From: Lachnospiraceae bacterium
GTDB taxonomy: Bacteria > Bacillota > Clostridia > Lachnospirales > Lachnospiraceae
Direction of reading: 5' to 3'
DNA length: 64,000 nucleotides
NCBI GenBank assembly: GCA_017387565.1
Contig: JAFOEY010000044.1
Coordinates: 17,220-81,219 of the forward strand
Shown here: piece by piece, positions 25,447 through 57,843 of the stretch
Layout of the letters: every line of letters begins with the position of its first letter
Numbering within the stretch: position 1 is the stretch's first letter
The notes under the pieces: generated by a model
Told to the model about the DNA's origin: nothing
The model's input: the letters and a program-made list of their open reading frames with translations, nothing else
Databases searched by the model: none
Position numbers and translations under genes: made by a program

Positions 25447-25474
25447 ATAAAAGTCTTATTCATCTGCCACGGCA
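25447..25474 (+). repeat. attL: truncated 5' end of the LMW-PTP gene
   Basis: ATG 25438 opens MKGKIKVLFICHGTPVLL and then stops; the intact gene downstream reads MIKVLFICHGNICRS. The shared 28 bases differ at two positions (25455 and 25467), with an 11-base identical block TTATTCATCTG at 25456-25466 that probably contains the crossover. Confidence 0.8.
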
Positions 25475-25724
25475 CTCCAGTTTTACTATAAATCATACCT
25501 TTGTAAACTTGGGCAAGACAGGGCATAATATGGCGGGAAACCGCATAAATACTACGGTTTAGACTACTAAGGCACATAGGCAGAATGGGGGTAAAGGCAA
25601 ATGTGTTGGGAGTATTCCTTAGTAGTAAAAGACTACTTAGGGAATGATAATTGAACAATATATTGCATATATGGCGGCTAATTCGTGAGGAGTTACGGGT
25701 TGGCCGCTTTTGTTAGTAGTAGGA
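25475..25724. other. Left end of the element: non-coding, arm-type integrase sites and a terminator
   Basis: TTAGTAGTA occurs at 25619-25627 and 25713-25721, with an inverted near-copy at about 25562-25570; three more copies lie by attR. These suit arm-binding sites of the integrase. GCGG-GAAA-CCGC (about 25534) is a tetraloop hairpin. GCGGCTAA (about 25674) pairs with TTGGCCGC (about 25703) and is followed by TTTT, a terminator on this strand. No gene is visible. Before attL, 25308-25380 has an ATTTACCTCA/TGAGGTAAAT inverted repeat that may end higA transcription. Confidence 0.55.
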
Positions 25725-25760
25725 GTGACTGATAGGGTGACCGATGAGGTGACTGATAAA
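25725..25760 (+). repeat. Three tandem 12-bp repeats near the left end
   Basis: GTGACTGATAGG, GTGACCGATGAG and GTGACTGATAAA follow without spacing. They may be Xis/accessory-protein sites, or a remnant. The following bases to 25880 show no gene. Confidence 0.6.
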
Positions 25761-25881
25761 TTAAACGAAATTCGGAAAAAGCGGAAAATGCCGAAAGTGG
25801 GTTAAAGGAATCAAAGTTAGTAGGAATTAGATTTGTGAGTAAACTGCAGATTTGTCGAAGTTATATTTTATAAAATAATGA

Positions 25882-25932
25882 CGAACGATCGTTCGGCTTC
25901 TTCTTGACTTTTTGTAATGCAAAAAGTATAAT
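25882..25932 (+). promoter_or_regulatory. Strong promoter and palindromic sites before the ribbon-helix-helix gene
   Basis: TTGACT (25904-25909), 17 bases, TATAAT (25927-25932). A perfect 14-base palindrome CGAACGATCGTTCG lies at 25882-25895, and ACTTTTT/AAAAAGT arms (25908-25914 and 25922-25928) fill the spacer. The layout suits autoregulation by the small DNA-binding protein that follows. Confidence 0.75.
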
Positions 25933-25958
25933 GTCAATATGCACGAAAGGAGAGCATT

Positions 25959-26141
25959 ATGAAAAAGATGGGACGTCCAAAAGGAGATAACAATATGGTT
26001 AAGAGTTATACCATCCGAATGGATGATGCTACTTTAGCCAGATTGGAAGCATATTGCAAACTGATGAAGGTTGCAAAATCAGAAGCCATTCGCAAAGCAA
26101 TTAATACTATGGTGGATGAATGTGAAGAAATCAATAAATAA
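25959..26141 (+). CDS. Ribbon-helix-helix (CopG/Arc-type) DNA-binding protein
   Basis: 60 residues. VKSYTIRMDDATLARLEAYCKLMKVAKSEAIRKAIN is the RHH fold (beta strand, then two helices). AAAGGAG lies at 25946-25952. It stands first in the rightward operon with the R-M genes and probably represses the promoter just upstream, thereby setting methylase/endonuclease levels. It could also be the antitoxin part of a pair, but no toxin partner is evident. Confidence 0.8.
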   Translation: MKKMGRPKGDNNMVKSYTIRMDDATLARLEAYCKLMKVAKSEAIRKAINTMVDECEEINK

Positions 26142-26144
26142 TAT

Positions 26145-26246
26145 GTGTTCAACGAACTGACGGACTATTTTGATGCAAAAGTGCGAGAGTCCAATGATCC
26201 ATCATTCGATGGTGCTAATACGATAATGTTCGGACTCGAAGAATAA
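26145..26246 (+). CDS. Short frame, 33 residues, GTG start
   Basis: GTG at 26145 lies three bases after the RHH stop and opens MFNELTDYFDAKVRESNDPSF...GLEE, an acidic peptide ending at TAA 26244-26246. There is no strong ribosome site, so translation would rely on coupling. It may be a remnant of a larger gene. Confidence 0.3.
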   Translation: MFNELTDYFDAKVRESNDPSFDGANTIMFGLEE

Positions 26247-26279
26247 GTGAGATGGCTGTATGCCAAGGAGGACTTTTTT

Positions 26280-27521
26280 ATGCCAATGGAAAAAACAATG
26301 TGCGAACTCTTTGCAGGAGTCGGAGGATTCCGTGTAGGAATGGAGAGATTAGGAACTGGGTGGAATACTACTTGGTTTTCACAATGGGAGCCAGATAAGG
26401 TTAATCAGTGGGCTCATGATTGTTATGTGGGTCACTTTGGTGATTTACAAGATATGCGTGGAGAATACCACACAGGAGAAGATATTTCATTAATGGATAA
26501 GAATGCCATACCAGACCACAATTTATTAGTAGGTGGTTTCCCATGTCAGGACTATAGCGTTGCTCATACATTAGCATCTTCACATGGGATTGAAGGTAAG
26601 AAGGGTGTATTGTGGTGGCAAATTCGAGATACGATTATTGCTAAGAATCCGGCTTTTTGTATATTTGAGAATGTAGATAGATTGCTAAAGTCTCCTGCAA
26701 GTCAGAGGGGAAGAGATTTTGGTATTATATTAGCTTGTTTAGCAAGCTTAAATTATTCAGTTGAATGGCGAGTTGTTAACGCTGCAACATATGGTGCGGC
26801 ACAGAGACGTAGAAGAACTTTTATATTTGCATATAGAAACGATACTGTATATGGTCAGAATATGAATGGAGTCGCACCAGTAGATGTAATTTCGCAAAGA
26901 GGTTTTATGGTACAGGCCTTTCCTATTGTCGCAAATACAGATATTGTGAATGGAACATTAGGTGCTTATGCAACAGATGAAGATATAATTAATATTTCTG
27001 ATAATTTTGCCTTTGCATTTGATAAAGCCGGATATATGCATGAAGGTAATATTTATACATGTGATATTACTGAAGAAGAAATCCAGCCAATATTGATTAG
27101 ACAGATACTTCAAGAAAATGTAGAAGAGGAGTTTTATATTACAGAGGATAAAAAGCCTAAGTGGGTATATTTAAAAGGAGCAAAGAAAATTCCTAGAAAG
27201 ACAAAAGATGGTCACGAATATACTTTCTCAGAGGGCCCGGTTGCATTCCCAGACCCTTGGGATAGACCGGGAAGAACAATGTTAACAAGCGAATCTACAT
27301 TAAATAGAAGTACACATGTTGTGACAGACCCAGGTTCTGGAAGACTTCGTTTATTAACGCCTATTGAAGCTGAAAGGCTACAGGGATTTGATGATGATTG
27401 GACTAATTCAGGAATGCCTAAGAGAATGCGTTATTTTTGTATGGGCAATGCGTTAGTAGTTCCAATGATAACACGAATGGGTGAGGTACTAGACGATATT
27501 ATGGCTAATGAAGAGCCGTAG
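26280..27521 (+). CDS. DNA (cytosine-5) methyltransferase, type II
   Basis: Start at ATG 26280 with GGAGG at 26266-26270. The C5-methylase motifs appear in order: CELFAGVGGFRVG (I, SAM binding), GGFPCQDYS (IV, catalytic Cys), FENVDRLLKS (VI), AAQRRRRTFIFAYR (VIII), a target-recognition region between about residues 190 and 340, RLLTPIEAERLQGFDDDW (IX) and MGNALVVPMITRMGEVL (X). 413 residues. It protects DNA against the endonuclease encoded next. If that enzyme is truly Sau3AI-like the target would be GATC with the C methylated; this is inference. Confidence 0.93.
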   Translation: MPMEKTMCELFAGVGGFRVGMERLGTGWNTTWFSQWEPDKVNQWAHDCYVGHFGDLQDMRGEYHTGEDISLMDKNAIPDHNLLVGGFPCQDYSVAHTLASSHGIEGKKGVLWWQIRDTIIAKNPAFCIFENVDRLLKSPASQRGRDFGIILACLASLNYSVEWRVVNAATYGAAQRRRRTFIFAYRNDTVYGQNMNGVAPVDVISQRGFMVQAFPIVANTDIVNGTLGAYATDEDIINISDNFAFAFDKAGYMHEGNIYTCDITEEEIQPILIRQILQENVEEEFYITEDKKPKWVYLKGAKKIPRKTKDGHEYTFSEGPVAFPDPWDRPGRTMLTSESTLNRSTHVVTDPGSGRLRLLTPIEAERLQGFDDDWTNSGMPKRMRYFCMGNALVVPMITRMGEVLDDIMANEEP

Positions 27522-27534
27522 AGAGGAGGATACA

Positions 27535-29145
27535 ATGTCACTTTCTTATGAATATGATAAACATGATAGAAGAGATATTTTGCGTCATGCAAAGGCTTTA
27601 GAAGGTTATGTTGTAGGTGATGTTTATGAATTGGAGGTTCTTGGTAAACATCGAGATAATATATTGCAGTACTATGCAGAAAAATGTATCCAAGGATGGA
27701 CTGACGAAGATGGAACATCTCACAGAGGTGATAAAGGACGAATTGGATTTTTAGTTCAGGAAGTTTATTTTGATGAACCACGTGATAATGAAGCACAAGC
27801 CGATTTAGGTGCTGTTGGAGTTGAATTAAAAGTAAGTCCTCTGATATACAAAACTAGAGCCGGATTAAAGGTTAAGGAAAGACTTGTTTTAGGAATGATT
27901 AATCGTAATGAACAATTACCAGAGAAATTCTGCGATTCTCATATTTACGAAAAGTGTAAATTGATGATGTTGGTTTATTATATAGATGAAACTAATCAAG
28001 GTAGAACGCCATTTCAGTTCCCATTTCATAAATCGGCATATGTTAAAATTCCAGAAGTGGATATGGCTATGATTGAGCAAGATTATAGATATATTCGGGA
28101 TTGTGTAAATGAGGGAAGATATTCTGATTTGCATGAGAGTGAGGCACACTATCTGTCTCCATGTACGAAGAATGGTGGACGTGCATTTTCGTTTAAGCCT
28201 TCATATATGAATCAGTTGTTTAGCGAGTATATTGATGCAAATAATTTGCTTTATGACCCGGATAAGGACGAGGAAACCTATGATATTATTCGTCAATATG
28301 ATGCCATCATAAGTGATGCGGATGAACTTAGGGAGCATACTTTTGAAGAAATTGTTTTAGGTCGTTTTAATCCATATATAGGAATGACTGTTACAGAAAT
28401 AAGACAAGCTTTAATGGAGCCGGATGATTTTGAGCAGTGGTCTTCAAAGAAGACGATTGATAAAGCGGAATTTGCACGAACAACTTTTGCTATGCTAGGA
28501 ATTACAAGTGAACAGGCTGAAGAATTTGTAAGATCGAATACATATGTAAAGACATTGCGCGTGAATAGCGACTTGACAATGAATGAGGATATTTCATTTT
28601 CTGCCTTCGATTTTAAAGAATTAATGGAAGAGGAATGGGAAGAGTCAACGGTCTATGAGGAAATGGTGGACAGACAGTTTTTATGGTCTGTTTTTAAAGA
28701 ACAGGGTGATGACTTCGTATTCTATGGCGCACGTTTCTGGAGTCTCCCACAGGAGGATGAACCTATCATTCGTAAGGGTTGGGAAGATATCAGAGACATT
28801 ATTCGAGATGGCGTTGAATTTGTTAAAGACCAAAAGGATGATGGAACATTGATATTAACCAAGAGAGGGAAAAATAGAATGTTGAATAATTTCCCTGACT
28901 CAAGAAATACAAATCCAAAGCGTAAGGAATATAGATTGTGTAAATCTCCGAAGGAATATAATAAGATTATTTCCATTCGTCCACATGCATCATTGGTATA
29001 TTATGATTTGAAGTCTATAGGATACGCAGATACAGAAAATCCTAGAAGCAATGGTAGCGAATTACCAAACGGCGATATTATGACAAAACAGTGCTTCTGG
29101 TTTAATAACGAGTATATTCTTGAACAGATTCAGGATATGTTCTAA
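27535..29145 (+). CDS. Sau3AI/MutH-family type II restriction endonuclease
   Basis: ATG 27535 has GAGGAGG just upstream, 13 bases after the methylase stop. 536 residues. GRIGFLVQEVYFDE followed by AQADLGAVGVELKVSPL gives the catalytic D...ExK pattern of the MutH/Sau3AI fold. The length allows two tandem MutH-like domains as in Sau3AI; the second half (about residues 270-500) lacks an obvious catalytic triad and would be the regulatory copy. Sau3AI cuts 5' of GATC. The pairing with a C5 methylase is as in the Sau3AI system. Specificity is inferred only. Confidence 0.82.
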   Translation: MSLSYEYDKHDRRDILRHAKALEGYVVGDVYELEVLGKHRDNILQYYAEKCIQGWTDEDGTSHRGDKGRIGFLVQEVYFDEPRDNEAQADLGAVGVELKVSPLIYKTRAGLKVKERLVLGMINRNEQLPEKFCDSHIYEKCKLMMLVYYIDETNQGRTPFQFPFHKSAYVKIPEVDMAMIEQDYRYIRDCVNEGRYSDLHESEAHYLSPCTKNGGRAFSFKPSYMNQLFSEYIDANNLLYDPDKDEETYDIIRQYDAIISDADELREHTFEEIVLGRFNPYIGMTVTEIRQALMEPDDFEQWSSKKTIDKAEFARTTFAMLGITSEQAEEFVRSNTYVKTLRVNSDLTMNEDISFSAFDFKELMEEEWEESTVYEEMVDRQFLWSVFKEQGDDFVFYGARFWSLPQEDEPIIRKGWEDIRDIIRDGVEFVKDQKDDGTLILTKRGKNRMLNNFPDSRNTNPKRKEYRLCKSPKEYNKIISIRPHASLVYYDLKSIGYADTENPRSNGSELPNGDIMTKQCFWFNNEYILEQIQDMF

Positions 29146-29176
29146 GAGAAAAAAATGCTACTAGGAAAGGATAAAA

Positions 29177-29398
29177 ATGATTTCTACATATTTAATTCGA
29201 TATGATGGTATTGATGGATTTGGAAGTATAGATTTTTGTGCTGAAAATAAAAAAGAGGCAATTAGTCTTTTTAACCAGTGGTGTGTGAATGATAATAGAA
29301 TGTTGGCATCAGTTCCAATTAAGAGTATTGAAATTATTTATAATGATGAAGATGCAGAAGAGTATGGTGCGAAATATAATAGTGTAGAAAAGAGATGA
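29177..29398 (+). CDS. Hypothetical 73-residue protein between endonuclease and kinase
   Basis: AGGAAAGG precedes the ATG. The product MISTYLIRYDGIDGFGSIDF...SIEIIYNDEDAEEYGAK looks like a small alpha/beta protein with strands at both ends and a helix in the middle. Not recognised. Tight spacing (31 bases after the endonuclease, five before the kinase) makes it part of the same unit. Confidence 0.6.
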   Translation: MISTYLIRYDGIDGFGSIDFCAENKKEAISLFNQWCVNDNRMLASVPIKSIEIIYNDEDAEEYGAKYNSVEKR

Positions 29399-29403
29399 TA
29401 TAG

Positions 29404-30609
29404 GTGGCACAATTAGATTCTTATTTAAGACGAATGTTTTCTGAGTATGATTTAAGTTTTCTTGATGATTATTATGATATGTATGATTTTGTACCTAATG
29501 ATGATTTACGTAAGATATTAGCAGCATTTCATACTAATCTGAATAATTGGATAACTGTAATAAATTCTGATATTCGCACAACATATGATGAAGATGGCAA
29601 ATTGGCGTATAGTGGTGGATACTTTCATGCGCAAGATAGTAGAGATTATTTGTCTCTTATAGAAAAAATTGATTCACTTCGAAGTAAGTTAAATTCTTCT
29701 GAATATGCATTTCGGATTTGTAAAGATGAATATGATGATTTTATAAGAAGGACACGAAGATTTGTAGTTAAATCGGGAGGTAGTACGATTCCAGATGGAT
29801 TTGAACCTATCGAAATTGAAGACTTAAATCCTGTATTTGAGTTGGTTTCAGGTGTTGCAATTACGAATGATAATAAAACGATATATGCAAGTATGAAGCC
29901 TGTGGGTGAGGGGTCGTACGCAAAAGTATTTTCATATACGGATCCAACGTACAATATTCCAATAATTTTAAAAAGAGCATTACCTACATTAGACAATAAG
30001 GAAATGAAGAGATTTGAGCAGGAGTTTCAGATACTTAAGAGTTTACGTTCTCCATATATTGTGCAAGCATATGCATATAACGAAGGTGCCAATGAATACA
30101 CAATGGAATATTTGGATGAAACTCTATATAAGTATATTTTGAAAAATAATGCCGAGCTATCCTTAAAAGAGCGAAAGGGAATAATTGCTCAAATATGTAA
30201 AGGATTAGAATACATTCATGGGAAAAATATTTTACATAGGGATATCAGTTTAGTTAATATTTTTGTCAAACATTATGAGGATGTAAATGTTATTAAACTA
30301 GGTGATTTTGGTCTTGTTAAGAATCCAGAAAATACACTGACTAGTTTGCAGACAGAAATTAAGGGTTCGTTGAATGACCCAGATTTAGTTAATGTGGGTT
30401 TTGCAAATTATGAAATCAGGCATGAAACATTTGCGTTAACAAGATTATGCTATTTTGTGTTAACAGGAAAAACGAATGTTTCAAAGCAAAAAGAAGGTGC
30501 CATTAAAGCATTTTGGCGCAAGGGTACGAGTACAGACATTAATGAACGTTTTAAGTCTGTTGAAGAATTGTATGCGGCTGTGATGGCAATTAATGAATCA
30601 AATATGTGA
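29404..30609 (+). CDS. Serine/threonine protein kinase downstream of the R-M genes
   Basis: 401 residues, GTG start five bases after the previous stop. The kinase domain occupies residues about 160-395: GEGSYAKVF (glycine loop, from 168), IILKRA (lysine), HRDISLVNIF (catalytic loop, H278-D280; S/L replace the usual K/P) and GDFGLVKN (DFG at 301-303). Residues 1-150 are a helical, acidic domain of unknown kind. No membrane segment. The missing lysine of the HRDxK type and the variant loop are odd but the metal and catalytic Asp remain. Linked kinase genes occur in some defence loci; a role in sensing infection or controlling the R-M system is inference. Confidence 0.85.
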   Translation: MAQLDSYLRRMFSEYDLSFLDDYYDMYDFVPNDDLRKILAAFHTNLNNWITVINSDIRTTYDEDGKLAYSGGYFHAQDSRDYLSLIEKIDSLRSKLNSSEYAFRICKDEYDDFIRRTRRFVVKSGGSTIPDGFEPIEIEDLNPVFELVSGVAITNDNKTIYASMKPVGEGSYAKVFSYTDPTYNIPIILKRALPTLDNKEMKRFEQEFQILKSLRSPYIVQAYAYNEGANEYTMEYLDETLYKYILKNNAELSLKERKGIIAQICKGLEYIHGKNILHRDISLVNIFVKHYEDVNVIKLGDFGLVKNPENTLTSLQTEIKGSLNDPDLVNVGFANYEIRHETFALTRLCYFVLTGKTNVSKQKEGAIKAFWRKGTSTDINERFKSVEELYAAVMAINESNM

Positions 30610-30623
30610 TGAATCTATATATA

Positions 30624-30655
30624 GGAGTAACCGAAAAGGTTGCTCCTTAATTTTT
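30624..30655 (+). terminator. Terminator after the R-M/kinase unit
   Basis: GGAGTAACC (30624-30632), loop GAAAA, GGTTGCTCC (30638-30646), one G-U pair, then TTAATTTTT. Confidence 0.75.
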
Positions 30656-30760
30656 GGCATTTTTTATAAATATCAAAAATTCTCATCGTCAAATCGCACG
30701 AGATTTCTCTTTTAAGGAATAGAAGAAATAATAAAAAGTTTCGGCCATTTGACCATATTT

Positions 30761-31060
30761 TTCCCAAAGAAATATGAGAGGAAAAATGATTTTCAAAAAC
30801 TGTAGTTCAAAATCCTCCTAACTGTAATTGGGAGGATTAGAGGGGAGAGGAAATTTTCCTTCGGATAGGAAAATGCTCAAATTCCTTACTAACAAAAATG
30901 AGAGGGAAAACTGGTCATTTTAGATATTTTTGTCCAGGGCTATGTGAAAGATAATAATTTTTCCGCCCATTTCAGAAAAAAGTGTCCATAGGAATGTGAA
31001 AGGATAAAAAACTTTCGTTCAAAATCAGATTTCCTGTCCAAAGGAATATGAAAGGGGTTG
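30761..31060 (+). repeat. Iteron-like direct repeats upstream of the primase gene, candidate replication origin
   Basis: TGTCCA-N5-ATRTG-AAAGR recurs at 30931, 30983 and 31035, exactly 52 bases apart, about five helical turns. A related copy (TTCCCA-AAGAA-ATATG-AGAGG) starts at 30761 and a weaker one near 30885. A further motif, GTTCAAAATC, follows copies near 30805 and 31016. The repeats sit in a 495-base gap without genes, directly before the primase-helicase. This is the usual place for the origin in P4-like and PICI-like satellites. Confidence 0.6.
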
Positions 31061-31104
31061 TAACTTTTCACGTCTATGAGAACAACACAAAGGAGGCATA
31101 CAAC

Positions 31105-33423
31105 ATGGATTTATCAAAAATTCCAAACAGGCTACGTGGCAAACCATATTTCTGCTTGATGAGGCTTGAACAGAAACCGGGTAAGGCCAAGAAGGAGAAG
31201 GTGCCATACAGAACGAATGGAGCGAGAGCAGACCCTACAAACCCAGAACATTTCACAAGCCTTGAGAATGTAATGAAGGTTATTGATAAGGGTGGGTATG
31301 ACGGAATCGGCATAGGCTTATTCGATGACATTATTGCTATCGACATTGATGATTGCGTGGAAGATGGTAAGCTGAACGATTTTGCTACAGAAATTGTGGA
31401 GGCACTAAAGACTTATGCAGAGTTTAGTATCTCCGGCACAGGAGTTCATATCTGGGCAAGGGCGCCAGGTCTTATTTATGACAAGGAACGCTACTACTTT
31501 AACAATCGCACATACGGACTTGAGATTTATCCGGCGGGTGTAACTACGAAGTTCATAGTGACCACAGGCAATGCAATCAATGATTGCGACATCAACGAAT
31601 GTACAGAGGCTTTTATAGGCATCGCAGAAAAATACATGGTAAGACCAACGGCAGAAAAGCCAAAGGTCGATGCTCCGGGGAGTTACCTTTCTGATGAATC
31701 AGTAATCGAGAAGATGCTTGCGTCTAAAAATGCAGAAAAGACAAAAGCCTTGTGGGAAGGTGAGATACCGGAAGGAAAATCGCACAGTGAGGCTGACGCA
31801 GCACTTTGCATGATACTCGCATTCTGGTGTGGTGGTGATGAGGAACAGATGGACAGGCTTTTTAGGCAATCTGCTCTTATTCGTGACAAGTGGGATGAGC
31901 TTCATGGTGCTGATACTTATGGAAATCTGACCATACGAAATGCCATAGCAAGAACCACAGAGTTTTACAAACCTGTTGATGTAGGAAATGCCCGTGAGGA
32001 CTTCAACGAACTTGCGATTCGACTTATGGAATTCATGCCGGAATCAAACCGACTTTACAAGGAAGGTGACCTTGGCAATGGAAGGCTCTTCGCTGATGTG
32101 TTTAAGGACATTGCAAGATATGTGCCGGAACGCAAGAAGTGGTTTATTTACGATGGCACCCGCTGGGTTGCAGATATTGGTTCGCTTAAGGCTATGGAAC
32201 TTGCTAAAGATTTAGCTGATGCATTGCTCATTCATTCCGTGACTATCAAGGACGAAGATATGCGAAACAACTTCATTAAGAATGTTGTGAGAAAGTGGCA
32301 GCAGAGAGGCTATCGTTCGGTCTACCTTAGTGATGCTCAAAGCGTGTACCCGGTGTCGATTGAGAAATTTGATGCAGATATTTATCTTTTCAATTGTAAG
32401 AACGGAACACTTAATTTGCGAGATGGAACTTTCAGAGAACACAGAGCAGATGACTTCGTTACCAAAATCTCGCATGTGGAATATGTGCCGTCAGCAAGTT
32501 CGGAACGTTTTGAAGAGTTCATCGATGAAATTACCTGCCGGGATAAGGATAGGGCAAGATTCCTTCAGAAAACATTGGGCTACGGCTTGAGTGGTGATAC
32601 AAGGTTTGAGTGCATGTTCTTCTATTTCGGAGAAACCACAAGAAATGGTAAGGGAACTCTTATGGAGACTGTTCTTATCACACTTGGGGATTACGGAGCA
32701 ACAGTAAGACCAGAAACCATAGCGACCAAGTATAACCCAAACAGCCAGAACCCTTCAGAAGATATTGCAAGACTTGCAGGCATACGATTTGCTAACATAT
32801 CCGAGCCGGGCAGAGGTCTTCTGCTTAACGCAGCACAGGTCAAAACGATGACGGGTAGTGATACCTTGAATGCTCGTTTTCTGCATGAGAACAGTTTTGA
32901 TTTCAGACCACAGTTCAAGCTATATGTGAATACCAACTATCTGCCTGTAATTACGGATATGACAGTGTTTACAAGTGACAGAGTTCTGATAGTGCCGTTT
33001 GAGAGACACTTTGAACCTTGGGAACAGGATAAAGGATTAAAGGCAGAATTCAGAAAGCCGGAAGTACAGAGTGCAGTTCTCAACTGGTTACTAGACGGAT
33101 ATGCACTTTTGCAGAAGGAAGGTCTGCAACCACCTAAATCAGTTCTTGAGGCAACGGCAGCCTACTATCACGAAAGTGATAAGGTTACGCAGTTTGCCGA
33201 TGACAGGCTCATCGAAGATGGTACCGCAGAGGTCAGAACATCACAGGTTTACGATGAATACCGAAGGTGGTGTGATGAGAATGGCTGTTACTCCGAGAAC
33301 AGCAGAAACTTCAATCAGGAGTTACGCAAATTCGGAAAAGTAGTCAGAAAGCGTCCGAAAGCTGGTGGAGAGAAAACCACAATGCTTATAGGATACAGGC
33401 TTAAGGTAGATTTCTTAAGCTAG
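31105..33423 (+). CDS. PrimPol-D5 primase/helicase of the satellite
   Basis: ATG 31105 has AGGAGG at 31091-31096; an earlier ATG at 31048 lies in the repeats. 772 residues. Residues about 15-180 look like an archaeo-eukaryotic primase: IAIDIDD (DxD) near 77-82 and SGTGVHIW (S-x-H) some 30 residues later. The D5_N region follows, then an SF3 helicase: GETTRNGKGT (Walker A, about 509-518), FANISEP (Walker B region) and LYVNTNYLP (sensor). The C-terminal part has DEYRRWCDENGCY, a winged-helix type end. It would recognise the origin, unwind and prime satellite DNA. Confidence 0.9.
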   Translation: MDLSKIPNRLRGKPYFCLMRLEQKPGKAKKEKVPYRTNGARADPTNPEHFTSLENVMKVIDKGGYDGIGIGLFDDIIAIDIDDCVEDGKLNDFATEIVEALKTYAEFSISGTGVHIWARAPGLIYDKERYYFNNRTYGLEIYPAGVTTKFIVTTGNAINDCDINECTEAFIGIAEKYMVRPTAEKPKVDAPGSYLSDESVIEKMLASKNAEKTKALWEGEIPEGKSHSEADAALCMILAFWCGGDEEQMDRLFRQSALIRDKWDELHGADTYGNLTIRNAIARTTEFYKPVDVGNAREDFNELAIRLMEFMPESNRLYKEGDLGNGRLFADVFKDIARYVPERKKWFIYDGTRWVADIGSLKAMELAKDLADALLIHSVTIKDEDMRNNFIKNVVRKWQQRGYRSVYLSDAQSVYPVSIEKFDADIYLFNCKNGTLNLRDGTFREHRADDFVTKISHVEYVPSASSERFEEFIDEITCRDKDRARFLQKTLGYGLSGDTRFECMFFYFGETTRNGKGTLMETVLITLGDYGATVRPETIATKYNPNSQNPSEDIARLAGIRFANISEPGRGLLLNAAQVKTMTGSDTLNARFLHENSFDFRPQFKLYVNTNYLPVITDMTVFTSDRVLIVPFERHFEPWEQDKGLKAEFRKPEVQSAVLNWLLDGYALLQKEGLQPPKSVLEATAAYYHESDKVTQFADDRLIEDGTAEVRTSQVYDEYRRWCDENGCYSENSRNFNQELRKFGKVVRKRPKAGGEKTTMLIGYRLKVDFLS

Positions 33424-33542
33424 GGGCAATATGTGGCTACTCATAATGGTAAATTCTATAGAAAAAATAACTATAGAAAACACCATATGAACTAGCCACA
33501 AGATGCCCCGATTGTGAAAACGCAAGAAGGGAGGAAAGCCTT

Positions 33543-33791
33543 ATGGTCAAGATTTGGGGAAGTGCCGAGGAGTTACATTTACTACCCGGTGATTGTGACA
33601 CAGAAAAGTACAAGTGCATCCGTGTGTATATGAAACCGGATAATAGCCTTGTCGGAGTGTTCATGAGTAAGGCGGCAGAACCACCTCATTACTATGTGGT
33701 TGATGGTTTGCAGGAGATGTACTACAAAACCCGTGCCGAGGCAATCGGCTACTGTATCAGTAAAGGATACGCAGAGAGAACAGAGAATTAG
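33543..33791 (+). CDS. Hypothetical 82-residue satellite protein
   Basis: GGGAGGAAAGCC precedes ATG 33543. The product MVKIWGSAEELHLLPGDC...HYYVVDGLQEMYYKTRAEAIGYC is small alpha/beta, unrecognised. It is first of two small genes between primase and terminase. Confidence 0.6.
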   Translation: MVKIWGSAEELHLLPGDCDTEKYKCIRVYMKPDNSLVGVFMSKAAEPPHYYVVDGLQEMYYKTRAEAIGYCISKGYAERTEN

Positions 33792-33803
33792 GAGGAAAAG
33801 CAA

Positions 33804-34019
33804 ATGTTTACACAGGATTATTTTGAGAAACACTTCAAGCTTCACAACAAGATTGTGCTTTACACACCGGACGATATCAAGTTGGAGTTTACCAAAGAGC
33901 CACACTTTCATATGAGTGGCGGTCATACATCACTGGACCTTATGGATGTAGAAGACCTTACCTCATTTTGCAATGCAAGAGGATTGAAAACAAAGCCAAG
34001 TGGCAACATCACAGTTTAG
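33804..34019 (+). CDS. Hypothetical 71-residue satellite protein
   Basis: AGGAGGAAAAGC precedes ATG 33804, 12 bases after the previous stop. MFTQDYFEKHFKLHNKIVLY...SLDLMDVEDLTSFCNARG. Unrecognised. Its stop falls at the base of the structured element that follows. Confidence 0.55.
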   Translation: MFTQDYFEKHFKLHNKIVLYTPDDIKLEFTKEPHFHMSGGHTSLDLMDVEDLTSFCNARGLKTKPSGNITV

Positions 34020-34096
34020 CACGAGAGGGTGACCCCAGGGGGCGGTCATAATCTCTGTGGTCTTTATGACAGGGCAACGGTGCCGCCCCTTCGTGC
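34019..34096 (+). other. Nested GC-rich stem before the terminase gene
   Basis: GCACGA (34019-34024) pairs with TCGTGC (34091-34096). GGGGCGG (34039-34045) pairs with CCGCCCC (34083-34089), and GTCATAA (34045-34051) pairs with TTATGAC (34064-34070). All are perfect and nested. No T-run follows. It may be an RNA control element for terS/capsid or a DNA packaging site; the position next to terS fits the latter, unproven. Confidence 0.55.
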
Positions 34097-34145
34097 GAAT
34101 AACTTACAAAAGTTTTAGGGGTATTAACCCCGGAAAGGAAAAAAT

Positions 34146-34682
34146 ATGGGAAAAAGAGGACCCATGCCGGGTACTGGTGGCAGACCGAGAAAAGCATTAT
34201 CGGAAAAGTTAGCTGATGGTAATCCGGGATATAAATCAATAAAGGTTATACCTGCACCTTCTACATATGAAGGTATAGGTATTCCAAAGCCAAATGATTA
34301 CATCAAAGCAAAACAAAAAAACGGCAAGCCATTATATGCCGAGGAAATCTATAACAATACCTGGGGATGGCTTATTGAATGCAAGTGTGACCACTTATTC
34401 GTACCTGCAATTGTGGAGGAATATGCGATGAGTTTTGCACGTTGGATTCAGTGTGAAGAGGCAATTTCGGAGTATGGTTTTTTGGCAAAGCACCCTACAA
34501 CAGGACAGGCTATCACATTTCCGTATGTCAGTATGAGCCAGAGTTACATGAAACAGGCAACGCAGCAATGGTCTTTGATTTATGAGATTGTAAAGGCTAA
34601 TTGCACAGTAAATTTTGAAGGAGCAACACCATATGAGGATGCAATGGAATTGTTGCTCAAGAGTAGAGAAAGGAGATTTTAA
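34146..34682 (+). CDS. P27-family phage terminase small subunit
   Basis: 178 residues. MGKRGPMPGTGGRPRK is the basic start typical of P27 small terminases; ARWIQCEEAISEYGFLAKHPTTGQ and YVSMSQSYMKQATQQW fit the helical core. The small subunit binds the packaging site and recruits the large subunit, which is absent here, so a helper's would be used. GGAAAGG lies before the ATG. Three bases before the capsid gene. Confidence 0.82.
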   Translation: MGKRGPMPGTGGRPRKALSEKLADGNPGYKSIKVIPAPSTYEGIGIPKPNDYIKAKQKNGKPLYAEEIYNNTWGWLIECKCDHLFVPAIVEEYAMSFARWIQCEEAISEYGFLAKHPTTGQAITFPYVSMSQSYMKQATQQWSLIYEIVKANCTVNFEGATPYEDAMELLLKSRERRF

Positions 34683-34684
34683 CT

Positions 34685-35662
34685 ATGGTTACAGAATCAA
34701 TCTCAAACAACAATTCATCACAGGAGGGAACAGTAATGGGTATTGATGAAATCACAAACAGTGGCAAGGATTATGCTACAGAATTTTGGAACAAGGCAAT
34801 GAGGGGTAAGCCGGCAGACTTTGAGAAACTTAAGAGTGGCAGAACAGCAACAGATATGTTTACTCTTCCTTACGATAGTAATCGTAAGTATATGGCTGAA
34901 CTTGAAAAGGAGAGTATCTTCCGTCAGTTTGCAACAAGTATCAATGTATCTTCATCCAACAATACCGTGCTTGCGTATGCGTCAGACGATGTGGCCGCAT
35001 GTGTGCCGGAAGGAGAATCTATCAATGTATCGGATCTGGCAGATGATTTTACAAGAATTAAGACAGAGGCACATAAGGTGGTGTCACTCGTAAAAGTAGC
35101 GAATGCATTTGTTACTGATAATGTGTTTGATATCAAGAAACACCTTCCAAAACGATTTGCAAAGGTCTTTGGCAGGGCAGAAGAAAATCTCTTCATTAAT
35201 GGAACGGGAGTAGGTCAGCCAGTGGGTATTTTGAATGACACATTGGGTGCTGAGACAGGAGTTACCACAACTGACGTTACTTTCGATGATGTCATTAATC
35301 TTTATATGTCAGTAAAGGCAAAACATCGTAAGCATGGAGTATGGCTTATGAATGACGAGACGGCACTTGCTCTCCGTAAGCTTAAAGATAAGGACGGCAA
35401 TTATTTATGGCAGGAGGATATGGATACCATTCTCGGTAAGCCTGTGTACATTTCAGAGTTTATGCCTAGCATTGCAACAGGCAAGAAGGTTATTGTTTTT
35501 GGTGATTTTAGTTACTATTGGATTCTTAATCGCAGACCTTTGGCTGTCAGAGCGCTTAATGAGAAGTTCGAACTTTATGACCAGACGGGCTACCTTGGGA
35601 TGGAGTATATTGACGGCAAACTTGTGAACAGAGAAGCCATCAAGGTTATGCAGATTTCATAA
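34685..35662 (+). CDS. HK97-fold phage major capsid protein
   Basis: 325 residues. YMAELEKESIFRQFATSINV, AACVPEGESINVSD, NLFINGTGVGQPVGIL and PVYISEFMPS are the recurring blocks of HK97-like capsid proteins. No N-terminal scaffold or protease is present. Start could be ATG 34685 (AAGGAG upstream) or ATG 34736 (GGAGG upstream); both are well placed. It is the only visible structural protein, so it may form a small satellite-specific shell with helper proteins or interfere with helper capsids. Confidence 0.85.
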   Translation: MVTESISNNNSSQEGTVMGIDEITNSGKDYATEFWNKAMRGKPADFEKLKSGRTATDMFTLPYDSNRKYMAELEKESIFRQFATSINVSSSNNTVLAYASDDVAACVPEGESINVSDLADDFTRIKTEAHKVVSLVKVANAFVTDNVFDIKKHLPKRFAKVFGRAEENLFINGTGVGQPVGILNDTLGAETGVTTTDVTFDDVINLYMSVKAKHRKHGVWLMNDETALALRKLKDKDGNYLWQEDMDTILGKPVYISEFMPSIATGKKVIVFGDFSYYWILNRRPLAVRALNEKFELYDQTGYLGMEYIDGKLVNREAIKVMQIS

Positions 35663-35721
35663 CCAATACAAATATCATTAGTCGGGGCGGAGATATCCGT
35701 TCCGACAGGGAGGTGAGCATA

Positions 35722-35943
35722 ATGCATATGGTTGAAACAGAGAAAAATGATAGTGCGTTGCCTGTTGGTGAGAAGTTTATGCTCACTATCAAAGAGGCAG
35801 CACCTTACTACAATATAGGTACAAAAAAACTGCGTAGGCTTGCAGAGGATAACCTTGGTGTGTTTTCAGTGTATAGCGGAAATAGATACCTAATTGTAAA
35901 ACCAAAGTTTGAAGAATTCATCCTTAATTCTTCAGAAATATAG
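35722..35943 (+). CDS. xis: Excisionase-like small DNA-binding protein
   Basis: 73 residues from ATG 35722 (GGAGG at 35709-35713). FMLTIKEAAPYYNIGTKKLRRLAEDN...SVYSGNRYLIVKPKFEEFI is the Tn916-type Xis layout (winged helix of the MerR-like superfamily). It would bend the element ends and favour excision by the integrase. Confidence 0.82.
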   Translation: MHMVETEKNDSALPVGEKFMLTIKEAAPYYNIGTKKLRRLAEDNLGVFSVYSGNRYLIVKPKFEEFILNSSEI

Positions 35944-36054
35944 TTCCTTTTATCTGCTGAAAGTAGTTGCTATTTCAGGGGTGTAGAGGGAATATACGAT
36001 GAACCCAATAAACCCTTGAAAACAGCCACTTTTGGTAGAAAGGAATGTGATGTT

Positions 36055-36264
36055 ATGGCAAAACCTAATTTAGCAGAAAAGGATATTTTAAACCCTTCGG
36101 AGACGATTGAATATTTCGTCTTGAGCCGAAGAAAGTTCTATGATTTATTGAAAAATACGGATGGAGAAGATTTCTTGGCATACTACGGAGAACGCAAGCT
36201 GATTATCCGTGTAGCCTTTGAAAAGTATTTACTGCACCATCCAGAGTTAAGGAGGCAGGTATAA
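36055..36264 (+). CDS. Second Xis-like small DNA-binding protein
   Basis: 69 residues from ATG 36055 (AAAGGA upstream). ILNPSETIEYFVLSRRKFYDLLKNT...YYGERKLIIRVAFEKYL has the same plan as the preceding protein with little identity. The stop overlaps the integrase start (TAATG). The two paralogues may be separate regulators of excision and of satellite genes. Confidence 0.75.
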   Translation: MAKPNLAEKDILNPSETIEYFVLSRRKFYDLLKNTDGEDFLAYYGERKLIIRVAFEKYLLHHPELRRQV

Positions 36265-37544
36265 TGGCGAAAGCAGGAAGAGGGCAGACAAGGCGTGATT
36301 CCAAACGAAGAGTTCTTCGTCCGGGAGAGAGCGTCAGAGCAGATGGAAAATATCAATATAAGTATCATATCGATGGCAAGCCGCATTTTGTGTATAGTTG
36401 GAAATTAGAGCCAACAGACAAATTACCAAAGGGCAAAAAACCATGCCTGTCACTCCGGGAACTTGAGAAACAGGTTAATTCTGAAATAGAAACACTTCCG
36501 AATATGGCGGATGGCCAAATGACGGTATGTGAACTTGTAGACCGATACCTCAAAACCAAGACGGGAGTACGACAGAGTACCAAGCAGGGATATGTCACAG
36601 TGCAAAGAGTTCTTGCCAAAGAGCCTTTCGGCAAGAAAACAATCCGAAGTGTGAAAACATCAGATGCAAAGCTGTTTCTTATCAAGCTACAACAGGAAGA
36701 TGGTAAAAGTTACAGTTCCATCCACACCATCCGGGGAGTGCTTAGACCTGCCTTTCAGATGGCGGTGGATGATGATATTATTGTAAAGAATCCGTTCGGA
36801 TTTCAGCTTGCTGGAGTTGTGGTAAATGATTCGGTAACAAGAGAGGCTATTAGCAAAGACCAAATGAGAAAGTTTCTAAAGTTTGTCCATGACGATGCGG
36901 TGTACTGTAAATATTATGAAGTGGTTTACATACTTTTCCACACGGGAATGCGAATATCGGAATTTTGTGGTCTGACACTGAAAGATATTGATTTGGAAAA
37001 GCGAATCGTTAATATCGACCATCAGCTACAAAGAACATCGGATATGAGGTATATCATTGAAACCACAAAGACGGATGCCGGAACAAGGAAACTTCCTATC
37101 ACAGAGGATGTGGCACAGATGTTTCAGGCAATCATTGAGGACAGAGTTCCACCCAAGGTCGAAAAGGTGATTGATGGATATAGTGGATTCCTTTTCTACG
37201 ATGAAAATGATATGCCTCTGGTGGCAATGCATTGGCAGCACCGATTCAATCATATGGTCGGCAGGTACAATGACATTTACCGAGTGCAGATGCCAAACAT
37301 CACTCCTCATGTTTGTAGGCACACCTACTGCTCCAATATGGCAAAATCGGGAATGAATCCAAAGACATTGCAGTACCTCATGGGGCATTCGGATATTTCA
37401 GTTACGATGAATGTGTATACACATATCGGATTTGATGATGCTGAGGAAGAACTGAAACGGATGGAAGAGTTCCGGAAGGCGCAGGCAGAGATTGAGAAGA
37501 AGAATGAGAAACCAATGTCGCAGAAAATGTTTAAGGCAATTTGA
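36264..37544 (+). CDS. int: Tyrosine recombinase/integrase
   Basis: 426 residues. The N-terminal part (about 10-60) is a Tn916-type arm-binding domain (KYQYKYHIDGKPHFVYSWKLE); residues about 80-180 are the core-binding domain. The catalytic domain has HTGMRISEF (Arg), TKTDAGTRKLPI (Lys), HVCRHTYCSNMAKSG (HxxR), LMGHSD (His) and MNVYTH (Tyr near 400). It inserts the element at the LMW-PTP gene by the 28-base repeat. Translationally coupled to the upstream Xis-like gene and followed by a terminator. Confidence 0.96.
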   Translation: MAKAGRGQTRRDSKRRVLRPGESVRADGKYQYKYHIDGKPHFVYSWKLEPTDKLPKGKKPCLSLRELEKQVNSEIETLPNMADGQMTVCELVDRYLKTKTGVRQSTKQGYVTVQRVLAKEPFGKKTIRSVKTSDAKLFLIKLQQEDGKSYSSIHTIRGVLRPAFQMAVDDDIIVKNPFGFQLAGVVVNDSVTREAISKDQMRKFLKFVHDDAVYCKYYEVVYILFHTGMRISEFCGLTLKDIDLEKRIVNIDHQLQRTSDMRYIIETTKTDAGTRKLPITEDVAQMFQAIIEDRVPPKVEKVIDGYSGFLFYDENDMPLVAMHWQHRFNHMVGRYNDIYRVQMPNITPHVCRHTYCSNMAKSGMNPKTLQYLMGHSDISVTMNVYTHIGFDDAEEELKRMEEFRKAQAEIEKKNEKPMSQKMFKAI

Positions 37545-37559
37545 TATAGGAGAATGATG

Positions 37560-37590
37560 ACGCTCCGGTTTAGGCTGGAGCGTTATTTTT
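37560..37590 (+). terminator. Terminator after the integrase
   Basis: ACGCTCC (37560-37566) and GGAGCGT (37577-37583) form a perfect stem, followed by TATTTTT. Confidence 0.8.
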
Positions 37591-37659
37591 GTGGAAAAAT
37601 GTCGTTTCTACAGGTATAATATATTTTAGAGAGATTTTGATAAAAAGGAGTGGTTGATA

Positions 37660-38601
37660 ATGGATATTACTGGAGCATCCGTAGCAAAAACAGCAGTAGA
37701 TTTAGCTAAAACAGATAATATACTCAACAAAGCAACAGGTTTTATGGGAATGTTATTTCCATATGCAGGTATAAAACAAAAAGCAGTTGATATGTATATA
37801 GAAGATATTGAAAAATCTGATTTGCCTGCAGAAACAAAGGTATTTATGGTTTTAAATACAAAGAAGACTTTTAAGAGAATTAAGAACCAAAAAGCTATTG
37901 CAGAAATTGCGATGAATAATGCAGTGCAAGGAACAGATTTCACAGAGAAATCTGGCGTAAATGAGGAATGGCTAGAAAGATTTATGGATTCTGCTGGTTT
38001 TGTAAGCTCGGAAGAAATCCAGTGGATATGGGGAAAAATATTAGCAAATGAATTTGAAAAACCAGGCTCAACTCCACCAAATATGATAAGAATATTGTCA
38101 GAAATGACACCTACATATGCTAAGGCTTTTAGAAAATTATGTAGTATGAGATTTTTGCTTATTTCTATTTCTGAAAACGAAGAAATAACAGGAGCATATT
38201 GGAAGACGGGAGTTCCGTATAGCGAAAATAAAGAATTAATGAATGAATTAGGAATTTCTTTCCAAGTAATTAATGAGTTGGAAACACTTGGAGTGATAAA
38301 GTTCGATTCAGTTGCGGGGTATATTACAACAGGAATAAATGACAAAAAGGTGATTCTTTGTGTTGATGGAAAAACAATGGAAATAACTCAGCACGAAAGC
38401 GGGAGTATTCCAATTGGAGATGTGATTTTGACATCTGCAGGGGAAGCACTTAAAAACATAACAACGATTGAAGAAATTCGCGGATATGATGAGGCTATAA
38501 AAAAGTATATGCGTTCTAAAGGTGTTGTATTTAGCGAGGAGGAACAGTACCAAGTTGTTGTAACAGGTGATAGATTTCAAGTTAAAAAGAAAGAGGTATA
38601 A
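37660..38601 (+). CDS. DUF2806-like protein, cargo next to attR
   Basis: 313 residues from ATG 37660 (AAGGAG upstream; a TTG at 37654 is possible). The region EEWLERFMDSAGFVSSEEIQWIWGKILANEFEKPGS followed by LSEMTPTYAKAF is characteristic of DUF2806 proteins as I recall them. No catalytic motif or membrane helix is clear; the N-terminus is helical. The gene lies outside the integrase terminator, between int and attR, the usual position for satellite cargo. It is followed 18 bases later by a nuclease-like gene, so the two probably act together. Confidence 0.65.
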   Translation: MDITGASVAKTAVDLAKTDNILNKATGFMGMLFPYAGIKQKAVDMYIEDIEKSDLPAETKVFMVLNTKKTFKRIKNQKAIAEIAMNNAVQGTDFTEKSGVNEEWLERFMDSAGFVSSEEIQWIWGKILANEFEKPGSTPPNMIRILSEMTPTYAKAFRKLCSMRFLLISISENEEITGAYWKTGVPYSENKELMNELGISFQVINELETLGVIKFDSVAGYITTGINDKKVILCVDGKTMEITQHESGSIPIGDVILTSAGEALKNITTIEEIRGYDEAIKKYMRSKGVVFSEEEQYQVVVTGDRFQVKKKEV

Positions 38602-38619
38602 TAAAAGAGAGAGTTATTT

Positions 38620-39378
38620 ATGCGAATTTTAAGTATTAATATAAATGATTTTGGCGGTTTGGAAAATCATCTAATGGAGCATAAAAAATACAATGCTTGG
38701 GTTGGTAGAGAGTGTATTGACTGGAAATACTGGAGTGCTATAGATAAAGATGTAGTTTTCAATAAATTTCTTAATTATATTGAGGATAAGCAACCGGATG
38801 TTTTAATAGTTAATGAAATGATAGTTAGTCCACTAGAAAGAATAGATTTTATATCAAAAATAGAAGAGATGGGTTTTTCTTATTTTGATGAAACAATACC
38901 GAGCGGAAAATACTCATTTACAATGATGTTTTATAAAAATATGAAATGTACGTTATTTGCATCTCCTAACAGTGGTTATCGAGAAAATAGGTCTATTTTG
39001 TATTTTGTTGAAGGGATTTATGTAAATGGTACACATTTTCCGCAGGAAAGTGATACTAAGTTTCTAAATGCTGTTGAGATGTTTTGCAAGGCGAGGAAAA
39101 ATGATAAAGTAATAATTATTGGAGACTTAAATGCAAATGATGTTTCTCGAGGCAATAAACAATTGGTGGAGAGATTGAAAACATATGGATATGTGGATGT
39201 GTGGGTTCAAAAAGGAAATCCAGCTGATACAGTAACTGAGGCAAAATATAGAGGAAGATTGGATTATGCAATCGCTTCAGAAGCAGTTTATGCATCTATT
39301 TCAAATATGGAAATAGATCCTATGCCGATGGATTGTGGAATGACAGACCATGCGGCAGTAATTATAGATGTGGTTTAA
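38620..39378 (+). CDS. Endonuclease/exonuclease/phosphatase-family protein, cargo next to attR
   Basis: 252 residues. EEP-fold motifs: ILSININDFGG at the start, VLIVNEM (Asn-Glu metal site) near residue 65, IIIGDLNAND near 165, RLDYAIAS near 210 and MTDHAAVIID at the end. These enzymes cut nucleic acid or hydrolyse phosphodiester/phosphate bonds. ATG 38620 has AAAGAGAG upstream. The partner is the DUF2806-like gene just before it. Being at the element edge, it is probable defence or superinfection cargo; substrate unknown. Confidence 0.78.
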   Translation: MRILSININDFGGLENHLMEHKKYNAWVGRECIDWKYWSAIDKDVVFNKFLNYIEDKQPDVLIVNEMIVSPLERIDFISKIEEMGFSYFDETIPSGKYSFTMMFYKNMKCTLFASPNSGYRENRSILYFVEGIYVNGTHFPQESDTKFLNAVEMFCKARKNDKVIIIGDLNANDVSRGNKQLVERLKTYGYVDVWVQKGNPADTVTEAKYRGRLDYAIASEAVYASISNMEIDPMPMDCGMTDHAAVIIDVV

Positions 39379-39387
39379 ATGTTTTCC

Positions 39388-39430
39388 TTAGTAGTAAGAA
39401 TTTTCATTTTACTACTAATTTTACTACTAA
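39388..39430. promoter_or_regulatory. Arm-type integrase sites at the right end
   Basis: TTAGTAGTA at 39388-39396, and its reverse complement TACTACTAA at 39410-39418 and 39422-39430. The same nonamer is present twice at the left end (25619 and 25713). Number and placement fit arm sites of a Tn916-like integrase. Confidence 0.65.
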
Positions 39431-39558
39431 CAGGTAGTAACAACTTGCAAAAATATGCTCTGATTTGCCACATCCCGTCATTTCAGAACAAATAACAAAA
39501 TCCCCGAAAATCCTCGCAAAACTGGGCATTTCCGGGCAAAAAGGAGTAAACAATTACT

Positions 39559-40047
39559 ATGATAAAAGTATTATTCATCTGTCACGGCAACATCTGCCGT
39601 TCCCCCATGGCAGAATTCATTTTAAAAGACATGGTAGAAAAACAAGGCCTGTCAGATCAATTTTATATTGAATCTGCAGCCACCAGCACTGAAGAAATCT
39701 GGAATGGCATTGGCAATCCGGTCTATCCGCCGGCGCGCGATGAATTACGAAAGCACGGTATATGCTGCGAAGGAAAACGAGCCAGACATTTGGAGAAAAA
39801 TGATTATGATAAATACGATTACTTAATCGGGATGGAAAGCATGAATCTCCGCAATATGGCTAGAATATTGGGAAATGATTCCGAAAACAAGATAAGCAAG
39901 CTTCTGGATTTTTCTGATAAAAAGGGATATTCGAGCAGAGATATTGCGGATCCGTGGTATACCGGAAAATTTGGACAGACCTATGATGATATTGTAGAGG
40001 GATGTACCTCTTTTTTAGAATATCTGAAAAGAGAAAATAAAATATAA
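39559..40047 (+). CDS. Low-molecular-weight protein tyrosine phosphatase
   Basis: 162 residues. CHGNICRS at about 9-16 is the CX5R(S/T) phosphate loop, and DIADPWYTGKF holds the general-acid Asp near residue 128. It dephosphorylates protein tyrosines (or arginines in some relatives) in the cytoplasm. The satellite inserted inside the codons just before the active-site loop, and the present ribosome site and first codons come from the element. The chromosomal original start remains at 25438 as a stub. Confidence 0.93.
   Translation: MIKVLFICHGNICRSPMAEFILKDMVEKQGLSDQFYIESAATSTEEIWNGIGNPVYPPARDELRKHGICCEGKRARHLEKNDYDKYDYLIGMESMNLRNMARILGNDSENKISKLLDFSDKKGYSSRDIADPWYTGKFGQTYDDIVEGCTSFLEYLKRENKI
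39562..39589 (+). repeat. attR within the LMW-PTP start codons
   Basis: Matches 25447-25474 at 26 of 28 bases. The new upstream sequence brings AAAGGAG and an ATG (39559), so the phosphatase gene is rebuilt with element-derived translation signals. Confidence 0.8.
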
Positions 40048-55927: not shown

Positions 55928-56077
55928 ATAGCGAATATATTGAAGCAAGTGTGCTGACCTGCTTAAGAAAAACTATCTGATATTAGTATATATTCAGAAT
56001 GAAAAAGTATCAATAACATTTCTATGGTATTCACCAGTAATATCCATAACAAATAAAATTGAATAGGAGTGATGACA

Positions 56078-56548: not shown

Positions 56549-56611
56549 GCATATGGAAAAGTCTGCACTTTATGGTAGAATAGAAATAAATATCTGAATT
56601 GGAGGTAATTT

Positions 56612-57808: not shown

Positions 57809-57843
57809 ATGCAAAAATTTACAATCGAAAGGAGATTCATATT

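Follow-up and report, generated by a model that had tools for sequence, protein, structure and literature searches.

Gene content of the integrated element

We analysed a stretch of 64,000 nucleotides (the window) from a Lachnospiraceae bacterium (assembly GCA_017387565.1, contig JAFOEY010000044.1, positions 17,220 to 81,219 of the forward strand). Integrated at window positions 25456-39589 is an element of 14.1 kb overall (14,115 bp core to core) that carries its own integrase (Int) and excisionase (Xis) genes, a specific attachment site and its own replication module (PrimPol-D5), together with a small terminase subunit (TerS) and a homologue of the HK97-fold major capsid protein (MCP). Its gene content marks it as very probably a phage satellite. 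The features are listed below with the profile matches that identify them (ORF, open reading frame; R-M, restriction-modification; LMW-PTP, low-molecular-weight protein tyrosine phosphatase; HMM, hidden Markov model).

25456..25474, +, attL core (duplicated core), with the P-loop codons of the original LMW-PTP 5' part that stayed behind on integration
25959..26141, +, RHH protein, possible regulator (PF12651/PF01402 above cut-off)
26247..27521, +, C5 cytosine methyltransferase, R-M cargo (PF00145 E 3e-56; PDLC03329 E 2e-157; TIGR00675)
27508..29145, +, Sau3AI-family type II restriction endonuclease (NF040973 328 bits, curated cut-off 300; PF02976)
29177..29398, +, 73-aa ORF without a Pfam match
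29404..30609, +, Ser/Thr protein kinase, possible defence cargo (PF00069 E 1e-28; Stk2/PD-T4-6-like profiles, none specific)
31048..33423, +, PrimPol-D5 replication primase/helicase (phrog_1829 E 8e-155; PF08706, PF03288)
33543..33791, +, small satellite-specific protein of the loosely defined family A (family A HMM E 8e-16)
33804..34019, +, small protein specific to satellites, a subtype of family A (E 6e-10 against the family A HMM)
34031..34137, +, candidate cos packaging site, 107 bp (profile E 9e-26, with the window in the training set; prophage-only profile E 1.5e-9)
34146..34682, +, P27-type TerS (phrog_83 E 4e-22; PF05119 E 2e-5)
34685..35662, +, delta-less HK97-fold MCP homologue (PF05065 E 7e-65; TIGR01554 partial match)
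35713..35943, +, Tn916-type excisionase 1 (PF09035 E 4e-12; phrog_16129)
36016..36264, +, Tn916-type excisionase-like protein 2 (PF09035 E 9e-5)
36264..37544, +, tyrosine integrase with a Tn916 N-terminal DNA-binding domain (PF00589, PF02920)
37654..38601, +, DUF2806 protein, right-hand cargo slot (PF10987 E 1e-20)
38620..39378, +, endonuclease/exonuclease/phosphatase (EEP)-family protein, right-hand cargo slot (PF03372 E 2e-9)
39571..39589, +, attR core (duplicated core)
39559..40047, +, host LMW-PTP gene with start and 5' end supplied by the element (intact ORF MIKVLFICHGNICRS...)

The Pfam scan covered 15 ORFs of the element and the PHROGs scan the 10 ORFs from PrimPol rightwards; among these no match to large terminase (TerL), portal, protease, tail or lysis families was identified. 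The profile matches bear out the element limits and gene calls of an original prediction (integrase, two excisionases, PrimPol-D5, P27 TerS and HK97 capsid protein, without TerL, portal, tail or lysis genes), which had missed the C5 methyltransferase, Sau3AI-family endonuclease, kinase, DUF2806 and EEP genes. No relaxase is present among the Pfam matches of the element proteins (oriT was not searched for). A master regulator of the Stl or AlpA type did not turn up (no dedicated search was made); the one possible regulator found is the RHH protein.

Integration into the LMW-PTP gene

The duplicated core, TTATTCATCTG(C/T)CACGGCA, lies at 25456-25474 and 39571-39589 with one mismatch between the copies, and encodes the catalytic P-loop of the phosphatase (ICHGN|ICRS). 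When the flanks are joined in silico, the PTP reading frame is intact (MKGKIKVLFICHGNICRS...); so is the ORF of the integrated form, because the element brings a new start and 5' end. As predicted from the reading frames, the PTP gene is not destroyed by integration. The original prediction was thus right as to the site, but the gene is not interrupted; its 5' end is duplicated. Tycheposons insert at tRNA genes, unlike this element, whose site is a protein gene.

The sequence at the left end (CACGGCA followed by a/cTCCAGTTTTA) is near-identical in L207/L032 (Blautia), L220 (Blautia) and L192 (Acetivibrio ethanolgignens), and the PTP gene adjoins an integrase 71-98% identical to that of the window in L207, L268, L214 and the genome G008, where the PTP at the occupied site is 96% identical to the window PTP. 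Together, the shared left ends and the PTP-adjacent related integrases point to a conserved site of one integrase lineage. A search for genomes with an empty site had also been suggested. In G003, of the same genus, the PTP gene has no adjacent ORF matching the window integrase, but its upstream genes differ from those of the window, and an empty site sharing upstream synteny with the window was not found. In G006 (same genus; L283:1730-6961), the PTP 5' end is separated from the rest of the gene by other DNA, in which an integrase is broken or incomplete, so that the PTP gene resembles a shared hotspot for insertion. A 14-bp direct repeat, TTCCTTAGTAGTAA, is found towards either end of the element (25615-25628 and 39384-39397), and the right end has additional words resembling TTACTACTAA. 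These repeats and words are possible arm-type sites for the Tn916-like integrase.

All four elements sharing the left-end sequence of the window carry R-M genes in the left cargo slot, although of different types: Sau3AI in the window, TdeIII-like with methyltransferases in L192, SacI with a C5 methyltransferase in L220, and type I methyltransferase and specificity genes in L032/L207. The right-hand slot is occupied by PDC-S39 (L207), a KAP/PifA-like ATPase (L268), a PIN7 protein (G008) or DUF2806/EEP (window).

A capsid gene without the delta domain

The window MCP has just 33 residues ahead of the FWN motif, and its match to TIGR01554 covers model positions 73-384 of 385 only. The capsid gene is therefore read as encoding the mature form only, with the scaffolding delta domain absent. 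At least 98 loci with such delta-less capsid genes (some duplicates; mostly in Clostridia) were gathered from 145 related genomes, IMG/VR and GTDB contigs. The FWN motif lies at a median position of 101 in full-length phage relatives (n=83) and of 23 in delta-less relatives (range 11-74, n=91; longest possible ORF taken). An HMM of the delta domain matched none of the 98 satellite loci and all 82 full-length loci, the latter being its training set.

In a tree of 119 capsid proteins (unrooted, made by a quick method; L018 was omitted from a second tree), one branch with SH-aLRT support of 100 parts 76 delta-less from 43 full-length rows. The dN/dS ratio was 0.04-0.31 in all 18 hand-picked close MCP pairs, with dS saturated in some, which indicates purifying selection on the pairs compared. 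By sequence, the closest solved structures are the MCP of the Rhodobacter gene transfer agent (GTA; 6tba/6tb9) and phage capsids; the capsid homologue Ccm of SaPIbov5 was not named among the PDB matches of the window MCP. On one Lachnospiraceae contig (L247 and L249), some 39 kb separate two capsid genes of the delta-less type.

Seventy-three of the 98 loci are GTDB contigs (69 Bacillota, 2 Spirochaetota, 1 Actinomycetota and 1 Bacteroidota), and the Prevotella and Actinomycetaceae host records may be binning errors. At least 9 kb is available on both sides in 30 loci. The 98 include duplicates from the same contig or strain (L003/L204, L004/L216, L005/L256, L028/L251 and probably L032/L207) and the near-copies L046-L048; L001/L002 are the window itself, and L108 (cut by a contig end) and L116 stand outside the count. 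Seven loci were retyped from full-length to delta-less, since they have a PrimPol upstream and show internal starts, the majority of which come with a ribosome-binding sequence; L247 and L265 are alike but were left untyped. Fourteen MCP rows are undecided, and partial rows (e.g., L040, L242, L257 and L267) were not typed. The sample leans towards relatives of the query and the family is under-sampled, 98 being a lower bound.

A shared plan among the satellites

The usual gene order is PrimPol, family A, a zinc-ribbon protein and MCP, followed in the window's subfamily by Xis and Int. Of the 71 satellite loci with at least 4 kb upstream of MCP, 59 have a PrimPol match there; satellite PrimPols are mostly ~24-70% identical to that of the window. 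TerL, portal and protease genes, sought with HMMs built from L061-type phage genes, were found upstream of MCP in none of these 71 loci, as against 43, 46 and 46 of 47 full-length loci, and the single TerL anywhere in the 98 loci (L269) is on the opposite strand. Contiguous late genes in relatives, which would point to a decayed prophage, were not found, in keeping with the satellite lifestyle first proposed.

Family A and zinc-ribbon HMMs, both trained on satellite loci, matched 72 and 80 of the 98 satellites, respectively, and none of 82 prophage MCP loci or 75 TerS loci. The zinc-ribbon protein (~100 aa) is encoded directly before the capsid gene (e.g., L207:9580-9954 and L268:9572-9952) and is a candidate packaging adaptor or regulator. 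P27-type TerS was identified in 7 of the 85 satellites with at least 1.5 kb upstream, and TerS was rejected as a family-wide core function on this count. Zinc-ribbon genes occur in 69 of the 78 loci without P27-type TerS and in none of the 7 with it, the remaining 9 having neither; the window has TerS and no zinc-ribbon. The TerS members form almost one group in the capsid tree (2 changes), so that this mutual exclusion is not phylogenetically independent. The window TerS is 99% identical to that of L192 and 88% identical to that of L112. For TerS of other families, three L032 ORFs were compared with Pfam, of which one was unmatched and two gave weak zinc-ribbon matches.

A 4.7-kb record filed as 'Bacteriophage sp.' (MT838964.1, L296; human faeces, Mexico) is a satellite fragment close to L032, with a zinc-ribbon protein 95% identical to that of L032 and a packaging-site candidate (E 2e-30). 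A virion origin was considered for this record and set aside; a study of virus-like particles that may be its source was found.

A candidate packaging site shared with phages

A usual layout in cos phages is HNH-site-TerS-TerL. The noncoding block at 34031-34137 has short GC-rich inverted repeats, and its first matches were in two prophages as well as in other satellites. Built from 18 satellite sequences, one of them the window's own, a profile detected the block in 96 of the 98 satellites (79 of the 81 not used for training); it was not found in L042 and L214, both short contigs. By the same profile, 68 of 73 IMG/VR TerS loci have the site immediately before TerS, with one other site among these loci; the profile gave a single match in the whole window and none in 3.16 Mb of Markov-shuffled DNA. 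Conversely, a profile made only from phage DNA upstream of TerS recovered 91 of the 98 satellites at the same positions and nothing in shuffled DNA. The site precedes TerS directly in all four named phages compared, whose TerS proteins are 51-54% identical to the window TerS. In PV036416 and PV036450 (both filed as Ca. Heliusvirales) and in PP197246 (TerS 51-53% identical in the three) it lies at the end of, or immediately behind, an annotated HNH gene; in Javan630 (54%) it is directly upstream of TerS with no annotated HNH.

The satellites contain 115 sites, of which 46 share the strand of MCP and lie up to 2.5 kb upstream of it, 53 are on the opposite strand up to 600 bp downstream and 16 are placed otherwise. 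Nineteen satellite loci (L201, L033, L261, L034 and others) have more than one copy, and in 11 the copies are on both strands. A structured RNA was considered for the block and rejected (RNAalifold gave 4 weak pairs and no both-sided change), and Rfam gave no relevant match within 33400-34700. From the lack of an RNA fold and the variable orientation, we argue that the block is a DNA signal.

From these comparisons, the block is most likely the cos/packaging site of the helper. An origin of replication or regulatory DNA is an improbable alternative: a noncoding block with inverted repeats could serve either purpose, but the phage copies are directly upstream of TerS, behind HNH in three of the four named phages, the satellite copies can face either way, are found on either side of MCP and show no conserved RNA fold, and the PrimPols of satellites sharing the block differ widely. 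Most satellites carry the block without a P27-type TerS. The notion that TerS and capsid together redirect packaging is strengthened by a packaging-site candidate of helper type, but the P27-type TerS is found in few satellites.

Likely helper phages

The helper is probably a phage of the Ca. Heliusvirales type, to judge from the sites and terminases compared. An identical 26-bp site core is present in the window and in prophages of G008 (same genus) and G149 (A. ethanolgignens), whose TerS proteins are 46-47% identical to the window TerS; in G008 the same PTP site is occupied by an element whose integrase is 98% identical. In A. ethanolgignens ACET-33324, the satellite contig L192 and a Heliusvirales-type prophage belong to one genome, and A. 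mesophilus N2K1 is another isolate with both a satellite and a prophage. Of 22 satellite genomes, 12 contain helper-type TerL, as do 11 of 140 relatives that lack a delta-less capsid gene (Fisher p 9e-7, remnants counted); a strict count gives 11 of 22 and 9 of 140 (p 2e-6). Matches to TerL below 50% identity were not counted as helper-type, L270 was dropped (not typed as a satellite), L008 and L062 (phage loci) were not counted, and G163 is a satellite genome through L249. Suggestive within-genome matches between sites are those of G151, G149 and G008.

In the strain's own genome, the element's gene is the only PF05065 match and the element's own site the only strong one. A weak extra site (C15:96450, E 0.008) lies beside ORFs that look Rpn- and AbiE-like by eye and matched no phage query protein, so that it is probably due to chance.

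Proposed mechanism and alternatives

SaPIbov5 carries the cos site of phage phi12, and its Ccm, 24% identical to the helper protein, is incorporated into phi12 heads and shifts them from prolate to small isometric (PMC8569155). According to the same source, Ccm is 355 aa long, and its N-terminal delta domain (residues 1-87) is cleaved off. We consider it likely that the window element is a cos-type phage satellite that works in the manner of SaPIbov5 with Ccm. Infection or induction of a Ca. Heliusvirales-type phage would be followed by excision of the element by Int/Xis and replication by PrimPol. The helper HNH nuclease and TerL, guided by the satellite TerS, would then cut the satellite cos and package the satellite DNA. 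The delta-less capsid protein may co-assemble with the helper capsid protein, probably at particular lattice positions; by analogy, the chances that it resizes capsids in this way are about even. The resulting small heads would fit ~14 kb and exclude the helper genome, and helper tails would complete the particle, which could deliver the R-M cargo.

Several observations weigh against this account. The delta domain kept in Ccm is gone from the element's capsid gene, and the window MCP and the prophage MCP of A. ethanolgignens share only 37% identity. The HMMs for TerL, portal and protease all derive from a single phage type and would miss unrelated versions of these genes. No helper was found in the strain's own genome, where PF04860, PF03354 and PF03237 gave no match and the L061 TerL none either. 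The co-occurrence test is only indicative because the groups compared differ in collection and taxa, and the identity of satellite and prophage sites in the same genome is not significantly raised (0.705 against 0.677; n=9 genomes, p=0.053).

An alternative that we regard as unlikely, if still worth weighing, is that the delta-less MCP poisons assembly: it would enter helper procapsids and abort or misdirect them, protecting the host and freeing space, with satellite DNA travelling in ordinary helper heads, possibly as concatemers. Work on HK97 suggests that a capsid protein lacking both the delta domain and a protease may be unable to assemble productively by itself, and the element also carries R-M and kinase genes. 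However, a poison might tolerate truncation, whereas purifying selection is seen in 18 of 18 MCP pairs and TIGR01554 is matched to its end; moreover, if 14-kb units were cut at cos for packaging into large heads, multimers would presumably be needed. There is a slim chance that the protein self-assembles into a small shell of its own, like encapsulins or GTAs, for use with the helper portal and terminase. That the Rhodobacter GTA MCP is its closest solved structure fits such a shell, but the satellite loci yielded neither portal nor protease, and the GTA chain has ~80 residues ahead of the match, so that it offers no clear precedent for delta-less assembly. A decayed prophage that has lost its late genes, as the phage-derived TerS and MCP and the lack of other recognised late genes might suggest, is largely refuted by the recurrence of the reduced plan in 98 loci across many families with a constrained MCP, and by the zinc-ribbon (80/98) and family A (72/98) genes that the 82 prophage MCP and 75 TerS loci lack.

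Beyond the SaPIbov5-like account of the single element, we tentatively entertain, as a possibility with the odds against it, an undescribed large satellite family parasitising Ca. Heliusvirales, a group that ranks among the most prevalent phages of the human gut; in this family the delta-less capsid gene was captured once and the zinc-ribbon protein replaces TerS as the terminase-diverting factor in most members. The window would then represent a minority branch using TerS instead of the zinc-ribbon.

Neighbouring DNA

Just left of the element, window 24201-25307 encodes an HTH and IrrE-like peptidase protein that resembles PADLOC PD-Lambda-2_B (E 7e-32). Window 54947-61900 is probably a second island: a CpaF/TadA-type ATPase ORF is apparently shortened near 55.9 kb and is followed by RadC-like, resolvase, type I methyltransferase and specificity-subunit ORFs (all named by eye).

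Comparison with known systems

The head gene set of capsid-forming phage-inducible chromosomal islands (cfPICIs) comprises TerL, portal, protease and MCP, unlike that of the element, in which MCP and TerS are the only head or terminase genes found. The element resembles cfPICIs in being a satellite with its own capsid gene, and cfPICIs make their own capsids (PMC11389934). With cos-type SaPIs it shares a helper cos site (a candidate here) and a homologue of the helper capsid protein, and no protease is identified for SaPIbov5 in the available part of its description. It differs from SaPIbov5 in having its own TerS and PrimPol and in its helper and host lineages. Since the delta domain is absent, the element falls outside the SaPIbov5/Ccm definition despite its presumed like working. 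Like PICIs and cos-type SaPIs, the element has its own integrase and excisionase with a specific attachment site and its own replication module. The packaging signal or TerS by which those satellites exploit the helper terminase has a counterpart here, at the level of sequence, in the candidate site and the TerS.

Some candidate PICIs of Mycobacterium, with phiRv1/phiRv2, likewise carry terminase or replication genes; unlike the element they are mycobacterial, and some are reported with scaffold genes (compared by description; PMC10654092). The available part of that source describes neither a shared cos site nor a delta-less capsid for them. The Ca. Heliusviridae/Heliusvirales phages have a related MCP (PF05065), the P27-like TerS family and the site upstream of TerS. 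Nine genes are shared among Ca. Heliusviridae, including TerL, portal, Clp protease and Pol I, and their MCP is full-length (PMC9226167). TerL, portal and Clp were not found in the element or its family, and we propose these phages as helpers, not kin.

Delta-less-capsid satellites of Clostridia are not described in the literature searched, which includes the available parts of PMC11318856, PMC8361208 and PMC12409344. Nor does that literature contain satellites of gut Clostridia or of Ca. Heliusviridae; a 2023 survey covering thousands of satellites (PMC10085698) was outside its scope, so that earlier detection by SatelliteFinder is possible. The satellite group is widespread and apparently undescribed. 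If our account is correct, a common group of gut phages has a widespread parasite that spreads restriction-modification systems. It would raise the structural question of how a capsid subunit without a scaffold domain enters or subverts HK97-type assembly, and the packaging-site candidate, conserved from satellite to phage, would provide a direct handle for finding helper-satellite pairs.

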